Shown: piece by piece, positions 5,997-47,400 of the stretch
Layout: every line of letters starts with the position of its first letter
Position numbering within the stretch: position 1 is the stretch's first letter
Source of the DNA: a virus
Strand: one strand, 5' to 3'
Virus record (IMG/VR): IMGVR_UViG_3300050137_000047
Coordinates: 1-49,435 of that record
Length of the DNA stretch: 49,435 nt
Position numbers and translations under genes: made by a program
Notes under the pieces: model-generated
What the model saw: only the letters and a program-made list of their open reading frames with translations
The model's database searches: none
What the model was told of the DNA's origin: nothing

Positions 5997-6622
5997 CCGC
6001 CGCAACCATCCTCACCCTCTCCAACGGAAAGGGCATCGATCTCACCGCACCGCGTGCGGAGGATATCGACTTCGACGTTGTGGCCGAGCATCTGGCGAAA
6101 GAGAATCGATACAACGGGGCCACGCGTGGCTTCGTCTATTCGGTCGCGCAACATTCCATCATCGGTGCAGATGCGGCCTTCACCGACACCGGAAGCCGTG
6201 AGCTAGCTGGTTATTTCCTCATTCATGATGGCCCTGAATTTGCATTGAAGGATGACACCACCCCGAAAAAGAAGGCCATCGCGGAAATTGCGGCGGCTGA
6301 ATTCGGAATATTGTCCGCTGAAATTCTCGGCACGTTCGCACTACTGACCTATCGAATGGACGCCGCAATTCATGAATCTGCTGGGCTCATCTGGCCGCCT
6401 TCATCAGCGATTCAATCCACAATCAAGGCCTACGACGAAATCATGTTCGTTACCGAATGGCGCGATTTGATGCGCGGCACGCCTCACCCCAATTGGGATA
6501 AGTATCGCGACATCTGCCCGCTGCCCGACATCATCGTTCCACAACATTGGACACAGGCGAAGGCGATGTTTCTGGATCGCTGTCGGCAATACCTTCCGCG
6601 CTTTGCCAAGGTGAAAGCATGA
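5993..6622 (+). CDS. HD-domain phosphohydrolase (YfbR/5'-deoxynucleotidase-like)
   Basis: 209 residues starting at the ATGA overlap. HD-superfamily metal ligands are visible: His54 in YSVAQHS, His78-Asp79 in FLIHDGPEF, and a later Asp in the helix with MDAAIHE. The pattern of an HD followed by a charged segment and TTPKKKAI is typical of phage nucleotide phosphohydrolases of the YfbR type, which remove phosphate from deoxynucleoside monophosphates. It probably helps shape nucleotide pools for phage DNA synthesis. An upstream in-frame ATG (5924) would overlap the lipoprotein gene and add an Arg-rich stretch; it is rejected. Confidence 0.8.
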   Translation: MTAATILTLSNGKGIDLTAPRAEDIDFDVVAEHLAKENRYNGATRGFVYSVAQHSIIGADAAFTDTGSRELAGYFLIHDGPEFALKDDTTPKKKAIAEIAAAEFGILSAEILGTFALLTYRMDAAIHESAGLIWPPSSAIQSTIKAYDEIMFVTEWRDLMRGTPHPNWDKYRDICPLPDIIVPQHWTQAKAMFLDRCRQYLPRFAKVKA

Positions 6623-20378: not shown

Positions 20379-21056
20379 ATGACCACAGGTATCGTCCAGA
20401 CCGAGTCCAGGCACGCCGGCGGCTTCATGGTAAGTGAAGCCAACATGCGCCGCTCGCGTGATCAGTTTGTCGTCGCGCTTTCGCAAACCCTCGTCGCCGG
20501 CCAGGTAGTTGGCAGGACCGCCGTTATAGCGAACGCCACATCGAGCGTCGCCGCGGATGCCGGCAATACCGGTAACGGCGTGTTCACGATCGACGCTACC
20601 GCGCCTGTCGGTGCCGGTGCGAAGAACGGCGTCTATCGCGTGATCAACGATCTGGTCGCCACCAACAGCGGTGAATTTCAGGTGCTCGATCCCGACGGCA
20701 TCGAGATCGGCCGCGTCGCGGTTGCCGCCACCTTCAACAACCAGATCAAGTTTGTCATCGCGGATGGAGCGACCGACTTCGCTATCGGCGATGCCTTCTC
20801 GGTCACGGTTGGCATCTCGGAAGGCAACTCTCAGATTGCGGCGTTCGTCGTGGCCAATACCGACGGCACGCAGCGACCTTTCGGCATCATCTGGCAGAAC
20901 GTAACGACCGACGCGTCCAATCTCGGCGCCGCTGTCGTGATTACGCGTGATGCCGAAGTGCGCGGTGTCGATCTCACCTGGCCGTCCGGCATCACCGCTC
21001 CGCAGCTCGCCGACGCCATCCGCCAGCTTGAGAAACAGCACATCATCGTTCGCTGA
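20379..21056 (+). CDS. head decoration protein, lambda gpD-like
   Basis: 225 residues, roughly twice gpD (about 110). N-terminal part has ESRHAGGFMVSEANMRRSRD and a TLVAGQVVGR block. An inserted Ala/Gly/Thr-rich beta domain (residues 45-150) follows, then the C-terminal PFGIIWQNVTTDASNLGAAV and VITRDAEVRGVDLTWP typical of D-type stabilisers. AAGGGAGA lies upstream of the ATG. It trimerises on the expanded capsid and secures the major capsid protein encoded next. Confidence 0.85.
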   Translation: MTTGIVQTESRHAGGFMVSEANMRRSRDQFVVALSQTLVAGQVVGRTAVIANATSSVAADAGNTGNGVFTIDATAPVGAGAKNGVYRVINDLVATNSGEFQVLDPDGIEIGRVAVAATFNNQIKFVIADGATDFAIGDAFSVTVGISEGNSQIAAFVVANTDGTQRPFGIIWQNVTTDASNLGAAVVITRDAEVRGVDLTWPSGITAPQLADAIRQLEKQHIIVR

Positions 21057-21116: not shown

Positions 21117-22163
21117 ATGATCACAATGGATGCATTCCGGGCGGACGCCTTCTCTGCCGTCTCGCTCACTACCGCCGTGGACAAGCTGGGTTTCATCCCG
21201 CAATTCCTCGGCACGATCCCCGGCCTATTCACCGACGCGCCTGTGCGTACCACGGCTGTGTGGATTGAAGAGCGTTCGAATTCGCCCGCTCTGATCCAGA
21301 CCACGGAACGTGCGGCGCCTCCGAAAGTCCGCGGCGCCGAACAGCGCGGCGCGCGCTCGTTCAAGACAAAGACTTTGGGCGAGGGCTCCCGCATCATGGC
21401 GGACGAGCTGCAGAACATCCGCGCCTTCGGATCTGAAACGGAAATGAAGACGCTGATGACTGAGTTGGCCCGTCGCCAGTTGCTCATCAAGAACGACATC
21501 GAGCTCACCAAGGAAAACTGGCGGCTCGGTGTCATCCAAGGCGTGCTCAAGGATGCCGACGGTTCGACGATCTATGACTGGAACGCCGAATTCAGCCAGG
21601 CGCAGGCCGGGGAAGTCAACTGGGACCTGCTGAACTCCAACCCGGTCGGCGGCTCGCTGCGGGCGCTGAGCAACACGACCGTGCGGCACATCACCCGTAA
21701 ACTGCTGGGCGTCGGCGGCTCCAACATCAGGATCATGGCGGCCTGCGGCGACAAGTTCTGGGACGCCTTCACGGCGCACCCGGAAGTCCGCCAGACCTAC
21801 CTGAACTGGATGGCGGCCGCCGATCTGCGCACCGGCAACGCCTGGGAGACCTTCGACTTCGGCAGCATCACCTGGTTCAACTATCGTTCGACAGACGACG
21901 GCGACACCACGGATACGCCCCTTGTCGGCATTCCTTCGACCCGTGCCAAGTTCTTCCCCGTTGGAGCAGGCATCTTCCAGATGGCCTACGCGCCGGCGCC
22001 GAAGTTCGAGTTTGTTAATACTCTCGGCATGCCGACTTATTCCTGGATGGTTCTCGACGAGAAGCGCGACATGTGGGCCGACTGCGAGACGTTCTCGTAT
22101 CCGCTCGCAGTCTGCACGATGCCAGGCGCGCTGCAGAGCGGCAAGCGGACCTCCGGCGACTGA
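21117..22163 (+). CDS. major capsid protein, lambda gpE family
   Basis: 348 residues, the usual length for the gpE family (lambda E is 341). Visible family blocks: the N-terminal helix AFSAVSLTTAVDKLGFIPQF, then RTTAVWIEERSNSPALIQTT, the long helix RRQLLIKNDIELTKENWRLG, the core AACGDKFWDAFTAHPEVRQT, and the C-terminal KFEFVNTLGMPTYSWM with EKRDMWADCETFSYPLAVC. Strong ribosome site (CAGGAGA). It forms the HK97-fold shell. Confidence 0.95.
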   Translation: MITMDAFRADAFSAVSLTTAVDKLGFIPQFLGTIPGLFTDAPVRTTAVWIEERSNSPALIQTTERAAPPKVRGAEQRGARSFKTKTLGEGSRIMADELQNIRAFGSETEMKTLMTELARRQLLIKNDIELTKENWRLGVIQGVLKDADGSTIYDWNAEFSQAQAGEVNWDLLNSNPVGGSLRALSNTTVRHITRKLLGVGGSNIRIMAACGDKFWDAFTAHPEVRQTYLNWMAAADLRTGNAWETFDFGSITWFNYRSTDDGDTTDTPLVGIPSTRAKFFPVGAGIFQMAYAPAPKFEFVNTLGMPTYSWMVLDEKRDMWADCETFSYPLAVCTMPGALQSGKRTSGD

Positions 22164-22190
22164 TCGAGCCTGATCGTTTTTGAGAAATGA

Positions 22191-22219
22191 GCCCCGCGCG
22201 GGAAACTGCGCGGGGTTTT
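22191..22219 (+). terminator. terminator after the major capsid gene
   Basis: Stem CCCCGCGC (22192-22199) / GCGCGGGG (22208-22215) with an eight-base loop, followed by TTTT. Placed 28 bases after the capsid stop inside the late operon. It would lower expression of genes beyond the capsid unless antitermination operates. Confidence 0.8.
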
Positions 22220-22240: not shown

Positions 22241-22471
22241 ATGTCGAAAAATAAACGCGCGGTTGTCGCAGCTCGGGAGCCGGCGCGACAACCGGTCAAA
22301 TCGTCGAGCTCACATTGTGTGCGTATGAGGCTGCCCGCCGGAAAGTATGCCGTGCAAGCGGCAGAAGCAGAAGTGATTGTCGATGGCGGCCGCATCGCCG
22401 GGGGAAACAAGAATTTCGAATTTGAGCTGGAGACCGAGACCTGGGTCGAAGTGCGTGTCATTCGCGATTGA
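22241..22471 (+). CDS. hypothetical small protein after the capsid terminator
   Basis: 76 residues from ATG 22241 (GAGG upstream). Start 22187 is rejected because the terminator hairpin lies inside it. Basic N terminus (SKNKRAVVAAREPARQ), then a beta-rich part (VRMRLPAGKYAVQAAEAEVI, ending in ELETETWVEVRVI) that suggests a small beta-sandwich. The location matches that of lambda FI, but the sequence does not allow that assignment. Confidence 0.6.
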   Translation: MSKNKRAVVAAREPARQPVKSSSSHCVRMRLPAGKYAVQAAEAEVIVDGGRIAGGNKNFEFELETETWVEVRVIRD

Positions 22472-22499
22472 TCAGCCCTCAACCTGAAGGAAAATTCCA

Positions 22500-22754
22500 A
22501 TGGGTGTTATGTATCCAGACGCATCAGCAGTCTCTCAGATTGCGGTGACCCCAAATGATAACGTAGATCTTCCAGGCGGTTCCTGCAGGGCCCTGGAGGT
22601 TTTGGTCGGAGGCAACATTGTCTGTATTGCGGCAACCGATCCGGACGCCGGCGCAATTACAAGGACCGGTTACCTCGCCGGGACTATCATCCCCATTTCC
22701 ATTCGTCGGGTGAAGGCTACCGGCACGACCGCGACAGTCTTGGCGCTCTACTAA
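22500..22754 (+). CDS. head spike base protein, RcGTA Rcc01079-like
   Basis: 84 residues with the family pattern: VTPNDNVDLPGGSCRALEVL, then GGNIVCIAATD and GTIIPISIRRVKATGTTATV, ending in LALY. This small beta-barrel type is named after the Rhodobacter capsulatus gene transfer agent protein RCAP_rcc01079, the base of the capsid head spikes (assignment from remembered family features). It overlaps the fibre gene by TAATG, so the two are probably made together. Position next to the major capsid gene supports attachment to the head. Confidence 0.7.
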   Translation: MGVMYPDASAVSQIAVTPNDNVDLPGGSCRALEVLVGGNIVCIAATDPDAGAITRTGYLAGTIIPISIRRVKATGTTATVLALY

Positions 22755-25372
22755 TGTTTGGCCCAGGCATTCTGATGTGGCGGAAAGGGCGATTCGCCGG
22801 CGCCGGCGCCATTGCCCTTTCGGCGGCCACTATTCCAGACGGGTCGGCAAATAATACCGTTGTCGGCACCGCTTCGCTCTCCGGTTCCTATACCGGGACG
22901 CCCGTGTGGGCAATCTTCGATGCCGATACCACCTTCAAGATTGATTCCAGCACTGGCATTATCGAAGTAAACAATAATACGGACCTCGTCGCGGCTACGC
23001 ACCCGATGATCACGGTCACGATTTCGGTCACTGGTACGACGCCGATCCCCGCCAATCTTGTTTCGCCGATTCTCGTTACCAAGGTGCCTACGAATTCAGT
23101 TGCGCCCGCGATCAGTGGTTCGGCAATTCTACCGGATACGTTGACGGTATCGAATGGAACGTGGACTGGAAATCCGGCGCCGACCTATGCCTATCAGTGG
23201 AAGAGCGCCGGTTCGAGCATCGGGGGTGCGATCGGCGCGACCTATGTCTTGCGGACCGCCGACGTTGGCTCGGCCATTACCTGCACTGTCACGGCAACGA
23301 ACAGCATCGGCAGTGCGAGCGTCACGTCGAGTGCGACCGCGACTGTTACCGAGACGACGTTAAGTTACTCGCCTTTCGTGACCGCAACGCAGTCATCCGC
23401 CTATACCGGCGCAACACCATCAACTTCTAGCGGCACGGCCCCATACACCTATTCGGCAGCGTCCCTACCGTCTTGGGCGTCGATTAGTTCAAGCACGGGG
23501 ATCATTACCGGCACACCGACGAGCGTGGAGACTGATGTGGGCATTACCATAACGGTTACGGATGCTAATGGAGCATACGCAGTCAGTTCGCCGTTTACCA
23601 TCACGGTTTCTGCGGCGAGCAGCTATCCGCTAACGCCATCGCTCGTTCTTGAGGCCGCCTCAGACACTGGCTTCTCGCCGACCGATAATATCACCGGCAT
23701 CACGACGCCGACGATTGACTTCGTCTTTGGCACGGTCCCGTTGGTTGGAGACGTGGTCACGATCAAAGACGGCGGCACGATAATCTTTGGGCCACATACG
23801 ATTACTTCGGGAGAAGCCGGGCTAAGCGCGATAGCGATGGGGCTTTCGGCTTTGTCTGCCGGTACTCATTCACTGACGGCGCGGCATTCGAGCGGCAGCA
23901 GTAACAGTGCGTGGTCAACTGCGCTTGTGCTCGTAATTGAGACGGTGGCGCCGACACTTTCGGCCCCAAGCGGTGTTGAACTTGCTCAGACAACGGCCAC
24001 TATCGGGGTCACTACAAGCGGGGCTGATGGGCATCTTTATTATGTTGTTACCACTTCTGCCACGCCGCCAAGCAAAGCGCAGATCAAGCTTGGCCAGAAT
24101 GACGGGAGCACCACCGCAGTCGCAGACAACCATACGTCTCCGCTATCTATCTCCGCTTCTGGCGCCAACTCTCTGACGGCAACAGGGCTAAGCGGAGCAA
24201 ATGGCGCCGTGACTTATGACGTGTATTTCATGCACGAGGACGCGGCAGGAAATCAGTCCAATGTCTCGACTGTTTCATGGTCGCAAACTGACATCACCGC
24301 GCCGACACTTTCTAGTGCAACGTCCGTTGTCGCGGGCGCTACCTCTGGCACGCTTAATGTGTCGTCCAACGAGAGCGCGGGCACGCTCTATTGGATTGTT
24401 ACAACAGATACCGGCGGCGCACCTTCGGCGGCGCAGATAAAGGCCGGGCACGATCACTCTGGCGGTCTAACCGGGGCCGCAGGCAGCCCGACTGTAACCG
24501 GGTCAGGAGCGCAGCCGACAATAACAGCAACAGGCTTGACGACCGGGCTTACTTACTTTGCCTACTTCCTGCATACGGACGTGGCCGGAAACAATAGCGC
24601 GGTGGTTGGTGCGGCAACGTCCTTCGTAACGTCAGGAGGCGCTTGGACCCCGGCTTCGTTGACTGGACTTGCCGCTTGGTACATGGGCGATGTCGGCGTC
24701 AGTCGTAGCGTCGGGGTAGGCTCCGAAATCACGGCATGGGCGGATCAAACCAGTAATCACTTCGATCTTTCAAAATATAATGCGGGCGTAACTACTTCTC
24801 CGGTCTATGACGACAATCCTCTTAATTCGCTGGCTACTACAAACTGGCAAGCCGTTACCAACCAAGGGTTAAAAAATTCTTCTATCAGCCTTGCCGGAGC
24901 GACAGCATGGGCGTTTGGCGTTATGCGCAACTCCGCGGCGTCACCTGCTAATTCCATTGCAGTTACTTATGAAGGCAACGCGACAACTTCTGACACGGTA
25001 GCAGCCTCGGTACAACTGATTTACTTTGTGACCGCCGCGCAGTCAAAAATTTATCATAATGGTGGCTTTGCCGTTAACAACGCCAGCTATGCACCAGCAC
25101 AGAATACGTGGCAAGCGATGGGTAGCGTACTGGATGCAACCAACGTCACGGCTTATACAGGCAACGGCAGCGGAACATTGGAAGCCGGAACATCTTTAGC
25201 GCGTGGCACTGGCAACCTGACTGGCCCCGGCACGTTAATGATTGGCCAAGGCGGAACAGGCGGCAATGCCCTCGCAGGAGACATTGCAGAAATAATTGTT
25301 GGAACTGGAACGCTTTCGAGCGGTGACTTAACCCAGATCGGGACGTACCTGCATTCTAAGTGGGGCGTCTAA
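22754..25372 (+). CDS. Ig-like/LamG-like fibre, candidate head-spike fibre
   Basis: 872 residues, Thr/Ser/Gly/Ala rich. Domain order: a short N-terminal anchor; a cadherin-like beta domain (25-115, STGIIEVNNNTDL); an Ig-like domain (about 120-200, TYAYQWKSAGSSIGG); a putative-Ig HYR/He_PIG domain (205-285, LPSWASISSSTGIITGTPT); a bacterial Ig-like domain (290-405); two FN3-like repeats (405-635, each with LYxxVTT and AQIK); and a C-terminal concanavalin/LamG-like lectin fold (640-872, GLAAWYMGDVGV). All are carbohydrate- or surface-binding folds. The start overlaps the spike base stop. Probably a surface-exposed adhesin; a tail fibre is the alternative. Confidence 0.75.
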   Translation: MFGPGILMWRKGRFAGAGAIALSAATIPDGSANNTVVGTASLSGSYTGTPVWAIFDADTTFKIDSSTGIIEVNNNTDLVAATHPMITVTISVTGTTPIPANLVSPILVTKVPTNSVAPAISGSAILPDTLTVSNGTWTGNPAPTYAYQWKSAGSSIGGAIGATYVLRTADVGSAITCTVTATNSIGSASVTSSATATVTETTLSYSPFVTATQSSAYTGATPSTSSGTAPYTYSAASLPSWASISSSTGIITGTPTSVETDVGITITVTDANGAYAVSSPFTITVSAASSYPLTPSLVLEAASDTGFSPTDNITGITTPTIDFVFGTVPLVGDVVTIKDGGTIIFGPHTITSGEAGLSAIAMGLSALSAGTHSLTARHSSGSSNSAWSTALVLVIETVAPTLSAPSGVELAQTTATIGVTTSGADGHLYYVVTTSATPPSKAQIKLGQNDGSTTAVADNHTSPLSISASGANSLTATGLSGANGAVTYDVYFMHEDAAGNQSNVSTVSWSQTDITAPTLSSATSVVAGATSGTLNVSSNESAGTLYWIVTTDTGGAPSAAQIKAGHDHSGGLTGAAGSPTVTGSGAQPTITATGLTTGLTYFAYFLHTDVAGNNSAVVGAATSFVTSGGAWTPASLTGLAAWYMGDVGVSRSVGVGSEITAWADQTSNHFDLSKYNAGVTTSPVYDDNPLNSLATTNWQAVTNQGLKNSSISLAGATAWAFGVMRNSAASPANSIAVTYEGNATTSDTVAASVQLIYFVTAAQSKIYHNGGFAVNNASYAPAQNTWQAMGSVLDATNVTAYTGNGSGTLEAGTSLARGTGNLTGPGTLMIGQGGTGGNALAGDIAEIIVGTGTLSSGDLTQIGTYLHSKWGV

Positions 25373-25387
25373 GATGGTCTTGACCCG

Positions 25388-26422
25388 ATGACTACGTTCT
25401 TGATTGGTGCCATCGGGGGCGACAGCAACGCCGGTTCTGGCGCAACACTAGATGCCACGCTTGATAACGCTACGCTTGCCGGTGTCTATATGTTTGACCG
25501 GGCAAACCCCGGCACTCCCCGGTTAGCCACTTCCGCGCTGATGGAGCAAGGCGCAAACGGCAATCAGGGCATGTCCGCCAATCGGGTTGGTTCAAGCGTT
25601 AAGTTTTTCCAAAATTTAATGTCACGCGGAAAGATACGCCCGGACTGCAATCTATTGCTCGTGGGCTGCGCACAGGCGGGTACTGCGTTTCAAAACTATT
25701 GGGCAACTACCGGAAGTCGATTAGCTTTAGGGGCGACGACAGATAATGGCAGCGGGACTTTTTATGGGCAAATAAATGCGGCTCTAGCACTGGGAACTAA
25801 CAGCCGTATGCTCTCCGTTGATTGGAACCACGGAGAGAATGACGGAAGTACGACGCAGACCCAATACCAGAACAACATTATTGGCACGTTTGGCGAGGTA
25901 AGAGCAAACATTCCAACTGCGGAAAGGATACCAATCCTCGTAACCGGGTGCCCGCCAGATCGGCAAGACCCCAACTTGGGGGCACAGGTTAACATGGGCG
26001 GCGTGTGCTTGGCTCAACAAAACGTGGCAAGCTATTTGGAAAACGCTGTTTACGTCGATCCAACCGGATTGCACTCGTATTTGAACGGGGGATCGGGCGG
26101 CGGCGGCGGGTTTGTGCATTTTACGCGGAACGCCCATCTTGGCGGCGTTGATAATTCACTTTCAATTGGCTCTGAATGGGCTTCCGGAACTACTTACGCT
26201 GCACAGGCCGTTAATGTCATCAAGGTCGTTCTAGGTTCGGACGGATGGTACTATTATTCTAAGCAGGCCGGCAATCTAGGAAATGACCCTTCGCTCGATA
26301 CGCCGGGCACATGGTGGGGAAAAACGTATCAATACGGGCAGACGGAGAGCAATCCGCTCTCTGAGCGCAAATATAATGCGCTGATAAATATGAAGTGGCC
26401 GATGACATGTACGTGGTCGTGA
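25388..26422 (+). CDS. SGNH-type carbohydrate esterase
   Basis: 344 residues. Block I GGDSNAGSGA near residue 10 carries the nucleophile Ser; block III is VDWNHGENDG near 140; the last block has HFTRNAHLGG near residue 245 with the catalytic His. This is the sialate O-acetylesterase-like SGNH layout. The C-terminal ~90 residues (WASGTTYAAQAVNVIKVVLG, SDGWYYYSKQAGN) look like a small carbohydrate-binding tail. It probably removes acetyl or other acyl groups from host surface polysaccharide. Placed directly after the fibre gene, so it is likely part of the same particle-borne apparatus. Confidence 0.75.
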   Translation: MTTFLIGAIGGDSNAGSGATLDATLDNATLAGVYMFDRANPGTPRLATSALMEQGANGNQGMSANRVGSSVKFFQNLMSRGKIRPDCNLLLVGCAQAGTAFQNYWATTGSRLALGATTDNGSGTFYGQINAALALGTNSRMLSVDWNHGENDGSTTQTQYQNNIIGTFGEVRANIPTAERIPILVTGCPPDRQDPNLGAQVNMGGVCLAQQNVASYLENAVYVDPTGLHSYLNGGSGGGGGFVHFTRNAHLGGVDNSLSIGSEWASGTTYAAQAVNVIKVVLGSDGWYYYSKQAGNLGNDPSLDTPGTWWGKTYQYGQTESNPLSERKYNALINMKWPMTCTWS

Positions 26423-26425
26423 GCC

Positions 26426-27547
26426 ATGACAACGTACACATGCTTCTGGACTACGCTGCCATTGCCAGGGAATGTCTCTGGTTTAAGTTCGTCGGCGGGG
26501 AGCGTAAATTCGCTCACTATGGCCTTTACGGGGGCCTCCGGCGCAACGAGCCACCAGGAGCAGCACAGATTATCCCCGAGTGGGTCGTGGTCCTCCCCGG
26601 CTACGATCATAAATGGCGGCATATTAATTGGGCTCACGACAGCAACGGCCTACGATGTGCAGGTGCGCGGTGTCGGAGCATATGGAAATGGTAGCTGGTC
26701 GAGCACGGCGACCGCTTCGACCGCGTCCTCTGGCCTGCTAATAAACATTACATTTGACGCAACGGCACTCGCCAGTGCATCAACCATCTGGAAAAATTGC
26801 GTCCTTACAGCCGCTGCATGGTTGCAGACGTTGTTCTCAAACCCCGTCACGCTGGCTATCACGGTTGGCTATGGCGAGGACGGCAGCGGTAACGGCTTGA
26901 GTGGTACGGGAGCCAGCAATTCTATTTTTGGCGGGCCGGGTTATTCCGGTGCAAGAGCGGCTTTGCTGGCCCAATCAGCACAAGGCTCCGCTACGCTGCC
27001 GTCAACTTCTCCGCTTTCTGGCGTTGTTTATGCAACACAAGCCAATGTAAAAGCTTTGGGATTGTTTACGTCCGGGGGATCAGTGGACGGCACCTGTGGC
27101 TTTGGGCCAAGTTCAATGTTTGGAAGCTTTACAGAGGGGGTGGCACCTGCAAGTGGCTACTACATGCCGGGAACCGTAAAGCACGAACTGACCGAGATCA
27201 TGGGCCGTCAATCGTTGATTGATAGCCAGCCAACCTATTATACTCCGGCTGACTTGTTCAGGTACACCGCCGCGGGGGCTCGTGCGCTGACTTCTTACGT
27301 CAATGGCGGTGCGGCGAACGCTTTTTTCTCTCTTGACGGCGGAACAACCCTACTAAGAGAGTGGAACAACAGAGACACGGGATTTGGCGATTTAGGCGAT
27401 TGGTTGGGTGGGAGCTATCCGGTAGACGCCTGCAACGGTTATGGGTCGCTCTATGTTGTAGCGCCATTTTCTACCCATGACGTTTTAGAAATGAACGCGA
27501 TCGGGTGGACGTTGACGGCGGCTGGCATGACGGCGGCGGGACTCTAA
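26426..27547 (+). CDS. FN3 plus zinc metalloprotease (NF038122-like)
   Basis: 373 residues. FN3-like domain at about 10-98, then a protease-like domain. The zinc motif is VKHELTEIMGR (near residue 250), with the first His and catalytic Glu but Glu where a second His is usual. It is followed by the family blocks YTPADLFRYTAAG, FFSLDGGTTLLREW and DVLEMNAIGW. These blocks match the bacterial NF038122 metalloprotease family, from memory. No signal peptide, so delivery on the virion is likely. It may cut surface proteins or trim the fibre encoded two genes upstream. Confidence 0.7.
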   Translation: MTTYTCFWTTLPLPGNVSGLSSSAGSVNSLTMAFTGASGATSHQEQHRLSPSGSWSSPATIINGGILIGLTTATAYDVQVRGVGAYGNGSWSSTATASTASSGLLINITFDATALASASTIWKNCVLTAAAWLQTLFSNPVTLAITVGYGEDGSGNGLSGTGASNSIFGGPGYSGARAALLAQSAQGSATLPSTSPLSGVVYATQANVKALGLFTSGGSVDGTCGFGPSSMFGSFTEGVAPASGYYMPGTVKHELTEIMGRQSLIDSQPTYYTPADLFRYTAAGARALTSYVNGGAANAFFSLDGGTTLLREWNNRDTGFGDLGDWLGGSYPVDACNGYGSLYVVAPFSTHDVLEMNAIGWTLTAAGMTAAGL

Positions 27548-27563
27548 TGGCCGACCCATTGGC

Positions 27564-28301
27564 TTATGCTTTTCGGCAAACAAATAAGGTTTCCCCGCGT
27601 ACGAGCGAGTGTCTAGAAATAAGCGGCTCTTCCGGGGTGAATCGTGTCAATTTAAATCCTGCGCTTCTGATGCGGTCGTCGGAATCGTTACCAAAACAGC
27701 GAACGTGATCGTATTGTCCGAACCAAAGTTCTCGGTCACTCATCTCTGTGATTGTATCGTCCTCAAATGTTTTCATGTTTTCGGTTACAGGAAACATGGC
27801 TAACAAAAGACCGTTTTGTTTTAGCGCCGCGTGAATTGACCTCAGGGCCTTGGCGTCGTTGACGTGCTCCAGGACGTGAGAAGCAATCACCACGTCAAAT
27901 TCGCCGTTCATGCCGATGTTCTCTATGTCGATGCGTCGGCTGGCACGGGAATCGAAAAGGTCGGCACTGACATAACGTGATGCCATCGGCGCGACGAGTT
28001 TGGTAATCGACTGTTCCGGCGCGAAATGGAGTATGGATTTACCTTCGATCTCGCTACGGTGTTCCTTTAACCAAATGGCGAAGAGGCGGTGACGTTCAAG
28101 TGAATGGCACTGCGGACAACCGGCGTCGCGTCTTAGGTTAACTCCAAAGGCATAAAACGGCCCGGCATAGCCGCAAATATTGCAGGTTCGATCGGCAATT
28201 ATGCCTCCAGTTTTAACGAAAGAAATGGCCGCCTGAACCGTGCGGATTCTGGCTTTCGTCCTGTTTCCGAGAAACCGTCCGACGATAGATTGGATGCTCA
28301 C
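27564..28301 (-). CDS. class I SAM-dependent methyltransferase with zinc-binding N-terminus
   Basis: Opposite strand to every neighbour. Start at GTG 28301-28299, where AAGGAG stands eight bases upstream; 245 residues. The N-terminal zinc element has TCNICGYAG and CPQCHSLERHR. The SAM-binding core follows: motif I ILHFAPE, then SADLFD and DVVIASHVLEHV, with GLLLAMFPVTEN. The C-terminal HVRCFGNDSDDRI segment is seen in methyltransferases of polysaccharide clusters. It could methylate a host surface sugar or protein. The convergent orientation implies its own promoter, perhaps active in the lysogen (a moron). Confidence 0.8.
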   Translation of the reverse strand: MSIQSIVGRFLGNRTKARIRTVQAAISFVKTGGIIADRTCNICGYAGPFYAFGVNLRRDAGCPQCHSLERHRLFAIWLKEHRSEIEGKSILHFAPEQSITKLVAPMASRYVSADLFDSRASRRIDIENIGMNGEFDVVIASHVLEHVNDAKALRSIHAALKQNGLLLAMFPVTENMKTFEDDTITEMSDRELWFGQYDHVRCFGNDSDDRIRSAGFKLTRFTPEEPLISRHSLVRGETLFVCRKA

Positions 28302-28431
28302 GCTACTGGCTCCTTCTTGGGATGAGCCACTATGAAAGCGCGAATATCCTTCGCTGGCAATAAGACAATCCACTTCCTGCAATCCCGACAGGTGATCAAA
28401 GGCTGAATCCCAGTGGACAATGCAGGCGATA

Positions 28432-28761
28432 ATGACCTCAGCTGATGACGTCGCCCAGCTGGCAGTAGACGACACCTATGCGGAATTCGGTCGCGAAGCG
28501 ACCTACACCCCGCCAGGCGGAGGTGCTGGCATTCCATGTACCGTCATAGTCGATCTGCGGGACATCGGTTCACGTCCCGACGACGGGCACCCTATCGCGG
28601 GCCAGATGACGATCGAGGTAAGGCGATCTGAAATCGCAGCGCCGGCGAAAGACGGCACCTTCGCATTTACAGCGGCTAGCGGAAATATAACGGCGACGGT
28701 CATGAACCGGCCGATGCTCGACGAAGAAAATGCCCTAGTCTGGAAAATGTGGGCGACCTGA
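28432..28761 (+). CDS. head-tail connector, lambda FII-like
   Basis: 109 residues from ATG 28432 (AGG upstream; ATG 28420 is an alternative). The pattern DDTYAEFGREATYTPPGG, a Val/Asp-rich strand, RPDDGHPIAGQMTIEVRRSE and the C-terminal NALVWKMWA is that of small connector proteins that sit below gpW/portal. It overlaps the next gene by TGATG. In lambda FII follows FI directly after the capsid; here a 6-kb module separates it from the capsid gene. Confidence 0.75.
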   Translation: MTSADDVAQLAVDDTYAEFGREATYTPPGGGAGIPCTVIVDLRDIGSRPDDGHPIAGQMTIEVRRSEIAAPAKDGTFAFTAASGNITATVMNRPMLDEENALVWKMWAT

Positions 28762-47089: not shown

Positions 47090-47400
47090 CGTAGACGTGA
47101 ACGGGAGCTTCGCGGCCCATAATTCAGTTTCGTTTCGTCGTTTGCAACGAAAGATGGTGCTGAACCTTCGAAGTGAAGATCGTCGGACCCGGGGGCAGTA
47201 CCCGGCGCCTCCACCAACGGGGGCGACATAGGATCGACGGCGCTCGGATGATCGAAGCTGTACTCGGCGTGACCTGCCGTGATCGGTCAAAACACCTGCC
47301 AACGACAATCAGTTGGTCGGTCAGGAACTGCGCCTCGCGGCGTAAGTGCTGATCCGAGTCAGGGGACGCTTGGGAACAGAAGTCCCCACTTCATTTTGTT
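47090..47400 (+). ncRNA. ssrA: tmRNA, circularly permuted two-piece type
   Basis: Acceptor piece first: T arm CCGGG (47189-47193), seven-base loop GGCAGTA, CCCGG (47201-47205), then acceptor 3' strand CGCCTCC (47206-47212), A, CCA (47214-47216). After two bases the coding piece begins with GGGGGCG (47219-47225), which pairs fully (one G-T) with CGCCTCC. The tag is read from GCC 47298 to TAA 47345: ANDNQLVGQELRLAA, with the ANDN start and LAA end usual in alphaproteobacteria. A pseudoknot-like GGGGAC/GTCCCC follows. The order acceptor-then-coding is the hallmark of the alphaproteobacterial permuted gene. Ends are approximate. It tags stalled nascent proteins and frees ribosomes. Confidence 0.88.

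Follow-up and report, generated by a model that had tools for sequence, protein, structure and literature searches.

A probable head-spike module between the capsid gene and the head-tail joining gene of a lambda-type phage

The DNA analyzed here is a single IMG/VR virus record (IMGVR_UViG_3300050137_000047), whose entire length of 49,435 bases is referred to as the window, and families were assigned from profile matches to Pfam, PHROG, and NCBIfam. The window carries a head gene set of the lambda type, with the decoration protein D (PF02924), the capsid protein E (PF03864), and FII (PF05354) all matching above cut-off. A permuted tmRNA of the alphaproteobacterial type lies near the right end (positions 47094 to 47390), and the host is therefore probably an alphaproteobacterium; the tmRNA is either carried by the phage or part of host DNA at an attachment site. 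The D protein (20379 to 21056) comprises 225 amino acids and matches a 116-position profile from end to end, which indicates that approximately 100 residues are inserted, as they are in the sister phages, i.e., the relatives that we found by their capsid protein. The gene of the major capsid protein (21117 to 22163, plus strand; PF03864, 1.6e-70) forms the left border of the slot described below. Its stop codon is followed by a strong hairpin that resembles a terminator or attenuator, seen as a stem in the sequence (22189 to 22218, plus strand); strong hairpins of differing sequence also lie directly 3′ of the stop of the capsid gene in every close relative (L007 to L011). The next gene (22241 to 22471, plus strand) encodes a small core protein of 76 amino acids from the ATG at 22241, with matches in L007, L008, L009, and L011, and occupies the place of FI in the lambda gene order. 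Since it is found in sister phages both with and without an insert, the insert proper begins at the gene behind it. The right border is the gene of the head-tail joining protein FII (28420 to 28761, plus strand), which exceeded the cut-offs of PF05354 and NF049848.

The sequence-only reading of this region had described a 6-kb block comprising a spike base, a fiber, an esterase, a metalloprotease, and a reverse-strand methyltransferase, delimited by the ATG of the small gene at 22241 and by the GTG at 28301 with which the methyltransferase begins. All five genes were confirmed by profile matches; their frames are intact and their spacing is tight. It had also been stated that the connector genes of such phages directly follow the capsid gene, and this is true of five relatives (L008, L011, L111, L112, and L123), in which the slot is empty, except that L008 and L011 carry the small conserved gene there. 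The window departs from this close spacing by 6 kb.

The first gene of the insert (22500 to 22754, plus strand) encodes 84 amino acids and matched the profile of the Rcc01079 family of head spike bases (NF048002) with 52.1 bits against a cut-off of 28. Similarity to Rcc01079 of RcGTA was obtained in a single-sequence search (6tb9, 7.5e-7) as well as with the family profile (2.3e-23), and the near-invariant VKATGTTA signature is retained. The AlphaFold model, based on 52 homologues, shows six strands in a jellyroll (pLDDT of 82.6), and its only good fold matches in the PDB were 6tb9 from RcGTA (TM of 0.75) and 8cjz from Carin1 (TM of 0.72), both of which are capsid spike bases; the remaining matches had E values of 0.07 or worse. 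The N terminus is short and divergent, and its first ten residues were modeled with a pLDDT of 58. Judged by its sequence and predicted fold, the protein is a genuine member of the Rcc01079 family, in agreement with the likeness to Rcc01079 first noticed in the sequence.

The stop codon of the base overlaps the ATG of the following gene (TAATG), as it does at 30 of 88 base loci. This second gene (22754 to 25372, plus strand) encodes the putative spike fiber of 872 amino acids, whose Ig-like domains He_PIG (PF05345) and Big_13 (PF19077) both exceeded the Pfam cut-offs. Its residues 1 to 14, MFGPGILMWRKGRF (22754 to 22795, plus strand), were picked out by a motif test as a candidate docking peptide of a weak variant: MFGPGILM resembles, in weak form, the Gly/hydrophobic peptide by which the RcGTA fiber is docked, and FGPGILM matches the motif only if proline is permitted and does not match its strict version. 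With the window left out and the loci gathered by using the window base as a query, the strict motif occurred just behind the base at 8 of 46 nonredundant loci, compared with 1 of 421 other open reading frames (p of 4e-8). The Ig domain of the window recurs at 52% identity in L099, directly behind MAMNRLGLGLGLQRG. At the other end of the fiber, residues 630 to 872 (24641 to 25369, plus strand) constitute a LamG-like domain by their likeness (29% identity, phmmer E value of 6e-5) to the base-coupled fiber of L048, which begins with MIGLGLDLW and exceeds the cut-off of Laminin_G_3 (PF13385); no direct Pfam match to LamG was obtained in the window, and the structure of the fiber C terminus, predicted from two sequences, reached a pLDDT of 36. 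An Ig/LamG fiber coupled to the base, as originally suggested, is thus supported by the TAATG overlap and the Ig profiles and, as far as LamG is concerned, indirectly through the L048 fiber.

The next two genes start 15 and 3 bases behind their upstream neighbors, and their products are therefore probably made late. The first (25388 to 26422, plus strand) encodes a SASA-type carbohydrate esterase of 344 amino acids (PF03629, 29.4 bits against a cut-off of 24.8), which agrees with the earlier assignment as an SGNH esterase. GGDSN and WNHGEND blocks are visible in it; inspection of the catalytic residues by eye revealed GGDSN and VHFT, with Gly in place of the usual Asp three residues before the His. 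The second (26426 to 27547, plus strand) encodes a homologue of the NF038122 metalloproteases (113.9 bits against a cut-off of 80), and its N-terminal domain (residues 20 to 115) resembles a domain in a beta-1,3-glucanase (9vsf, 4.1e-7). Its zinc motif reads HExxE (HELTEIMGR, residues 253 to 261), and because this form is devoid of the canonical second zinc histidine, catalysis is doubtful; of the proposed metalloprotease, the family membership stood, whereas the HExxH motif was replaced. HExxE also occurs in the best-scoring relative, L185, whereas the other aligned NF038122 members carry HExxH; the window protein and L185 form a subgroup with HE[LI]TE[IV]MGR at this place. The last gene of the insert lies on the minus strand (27564 to 28301, within a frame open to 28475) and encodes a class I methyltransferase (PF13489 and PF08241, above cut-off).

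In sister phages with an occupied slot, the contents differ. L007, whose capsid protein is 91% identical to that of the window, holds a 96-amino-acid protein, here referred to as B2, a short protein rich in Gly, three larger ones that matched no family, and a reverse-strand acyltransferase (Acyl_transf_3). Proteins of the B2 family are about 96 to 122 amino acids long (L007:9130-9420, L010:11311-11676, L099:11705-12010, L191 at about 6001-6303, and L202 at about 1461-1764). The B2 relative in L010 is followed by a protein with GFGLGLGG, and behind each of those in L099, L189, L190, and L192 comes a protein whose N terminus is of the LGLGLG type; in L191 and L202, B2 lies behind capsid genes of the lambda type and the SU10 type, respectively. 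Comparison of profiles, that of B2 being built from only 4 sequences, revealed no relationship between B2 and the Rcc01079 family, and B2 has no solved relative. From its sequence context, B2 may represent a second family of spike bases. Several slot proteins of L009 (11300-13531) and L010 (11311-15271) have signal-peptide-like starts, which would be unexpected in virion components that assemble in the cytoplasm. A domain common to the tail protein J and the slot proteins of sister phages had been suspected but was not found.

Collectively, these data make it likely that the phage bears a head spike of the RcGTA type produced from two translationally coupled genes, and sugar-binding fibers are probably displayed at the corners of its head. 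The base family and its fold, the coupling of the fiber, the domains that it has in common with docking-peptide fibers, and the position of the genes all speak for the location on the head that the sequence-only reading had deduced from adjacency. Following the mechanism described for RcGTA (PMC7296036, PMC10218006), five copies of the 84-amino-acid jellyroll base would sit on each capsid pentamer, and the Gly-spaced hydrophobic N terminus of one fiber would pass through the base pentamer and anchor a flexible rod of Ig domains ending in the LamG-like lectin domain. The spike would bind host surface polysaccharide reversibly and multivalently before the tail engages. The esterase, made late and belonging to the virion or the lysate, would probably trim the same polysaccharide, the protease homologue may be merely a binding protein, and the reverse-strand methyltransferase would probably alter the surface glycan of the host in lysogens. 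Several observations stand against the head spike, namely, the weakness of the docking peptide in the window (FGPGI with proline), the shortness and poor prediction of the base N terminus, which contacts the capsid in RcGTA, a capsid type that differs from that of RcGTA, and the position of the pair in the phages RcapMu, RcapNL, and P8625, where it stands behind tail genes under the annotation of tail fiber.

Which of the five products would travel with the particle is a narrower question, and we give slightly less than an even chance to the reading that only the base and the fiber are virion parts, with the esterase, the protease homologue, and the methyltransferase being cargo for the lysogen or the lysate. 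The variable content of the slot in close relatives is consistent with cargo, as are the reverse-strand acyltransferase at the same spot in L007, the methyltransferases and sulfotransferase in the slot of L128, and a GC3 of 0.54 to 0.59, compared with 0.71 to 0.82 in the left head genes; the tail genes J and TMP, however, are similarly low in GC3, and the genes of the esterase and the protease homologue run in the direction of the late genes, with no signal peptide visible in either product. For the methyltransferase itself, the most likely role is that of cargo expressed in the lysogen and acting on the host surface glycan rather than that of a virion component, and its family, strand, and composition make it look like a case of lysogenic conversion. 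Its gene has the lowest GC content among the genes compared and is convergent with the operon, and the protein matched no defense system and was without relatives among the sister phages. Superinfection exclusion would be a fitting role for a spike that binds a glycan and a gene that modifies one.

A wider proposal, which we regard as possible while leaning against it, is that vertex-spike modules are exchanged at this slot, that their bases belong to at least two families unrelated in sequence (Rcc01079-like and B2) but holding the same type of docking peptide, and that the spike is often paired there with enzymes altering the glycan that it binds, so that lysogens escape readsorption. Among the slots with glycan genes, that of L128 (7939-12288) contains two methyltransferases and a sulfotransferase, and that of L191 (6319-9823) contains a GT8-like gene below cut-off.

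The fuller claim of the sequence-only reading, a particle whose capsid bears degrading as well as binding enzymes, is unsupported, and we consider it unlikely that the esterase and the protease homologue are attached to the head as well. They share the strand of the fiber and follow it at tight spacing, the esterase family suits a polysaccharide, and the glucanase-like N-terminal domain of the protease homologue points in the same direction. Nevertheless, the docking motif is absent from both N termini, that of the esterase consisting of its Ser block, and HExxE is found in the protease homologue. In addition, no relatives of either protein were found in scans of viral contigs or by tblastn in phage records, and none of the protease homologue in plasmids. 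One fiber peptide fills all five pockets of the base pentamer in RcGTA (PMC7296036), and therefore no spare docking site is evident for further proteins.

The head spike remains our preferred reading of the base and the fiber, and the surroundings of base genes elsewhere bear on it. In L055, an HK97-type capsid gene, a base, a docking fiber, and a head-tail adaptor follow one another in the order seen in the window. A base follows the capsid gene and one small open reading frame in L086, lies between the portal and head morphogenesis genes in L044, and stands behind an adaptor in L032 and behind a portal and an adaptor in L015; in L128, a base occupies this slot behind a lambda-type capsid gene, and its score of 23.5 bits falls short of the cut-off of 28. 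In several bacterial genomes, e.g., L083, the base adjoins apparent polysaccharide genes. As bases occur among the head genes of several unrelated phages, the gene order that had been singled out is informative but not unique, and capsid-fiber genes within structural regions have been noted earlier (PMC11409702). Head spikes of this family have been described in detail mainly in RcGTA. The claim that the apparatus is unusual holds only in part, in view of the order in L055 and the bases among head genes in the other five phages. The suggested search for the gene order in other phages likewise recovered it in L055, whereas the pair follows tail genes in RcapMu, RcapNL, and P8625. The latter arrangement, together with the PHROG name of the base family, "tail fiber protein," would suit a tail-fiber module that binds at the tail and came to stand behind the capsid gene by chance. 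We regard this as quite improbable, given that both solved members of the base family come from capsids and that bases lie among portal, capsid, and connector genes in the six phages named above, although gene position alone is not decisive, since the pair of RcGTA is itself unlinked to its structural cluster. Misassembly of the environmental contig, conceivable for an IMG/VR record, is very improbable in view of the clean gene borders, the intact small core gene and FII at either side, and the presence in L007 of a similarly sized block at this position.

The spike would constitute a module that can be swapped at a single defined position of the genome in a lineage with lambda-type capsids, with a docking peptide that is recognizable in relatives, and capsid-borne adsorption therefore becomes searchable in genome data. 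The slot also suggests a second base family and offers a defined place in which to seek paired receptor-binding and receptor-modifying genes.

Among known systems, the Rcc01079/Rcc01080 pair of RcGTA (GhsA/GhsB; 6tb9/6tba) shares with the window the base family and fold, the succession of base and fiber, a candidate docking-type fiber N terminus (weak in the window), and a fiber predicted to bind sugar. In contrast, the RcGTA pair lies outside the structural cluster of an agent with an HK97-type capsid, and the window pair lies inside lambda-E head genes; the RcGTA fiber has 325 amino acids compared with 872, and only in the window do an esterase, a protease homologue, and a methyltransferase follow it. 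L055 has the same order with an overlapping start, its fiber of 779 amino acids beginning with MDGFGFGIDLSL, but the capsid is of the HK97 type and the adaptor follows the fiber at once, without enzymes. In the Rhodobacter phages RcapMu and RcWaterboi, base and fiber stand beside a DUF303/SASA protein (a SASA-domain tailspike), but the module forms the end of the tail gene block, and the window esterase showed no significant similarity to the SASA protein of RcapMu. By description only, phage 7-7-1 is similar in using capsid-vertex fibers for first contact (PMC12796354) and differs in that flagella are the target of these fibers and an Ig linker protein is presumed to take part in their base; a capsid-fiber gene within the structural cluster, again by description only, is the point of likeness to Rhizobium phage 16-3 and RDJLphi1 (PMC11409702). 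A literature search found no paper on Carin1 or 8CJZ. The spike base of Carin1 (8cjz) has the same family and fold as the window base and belongs to the capsid of a mature phage.
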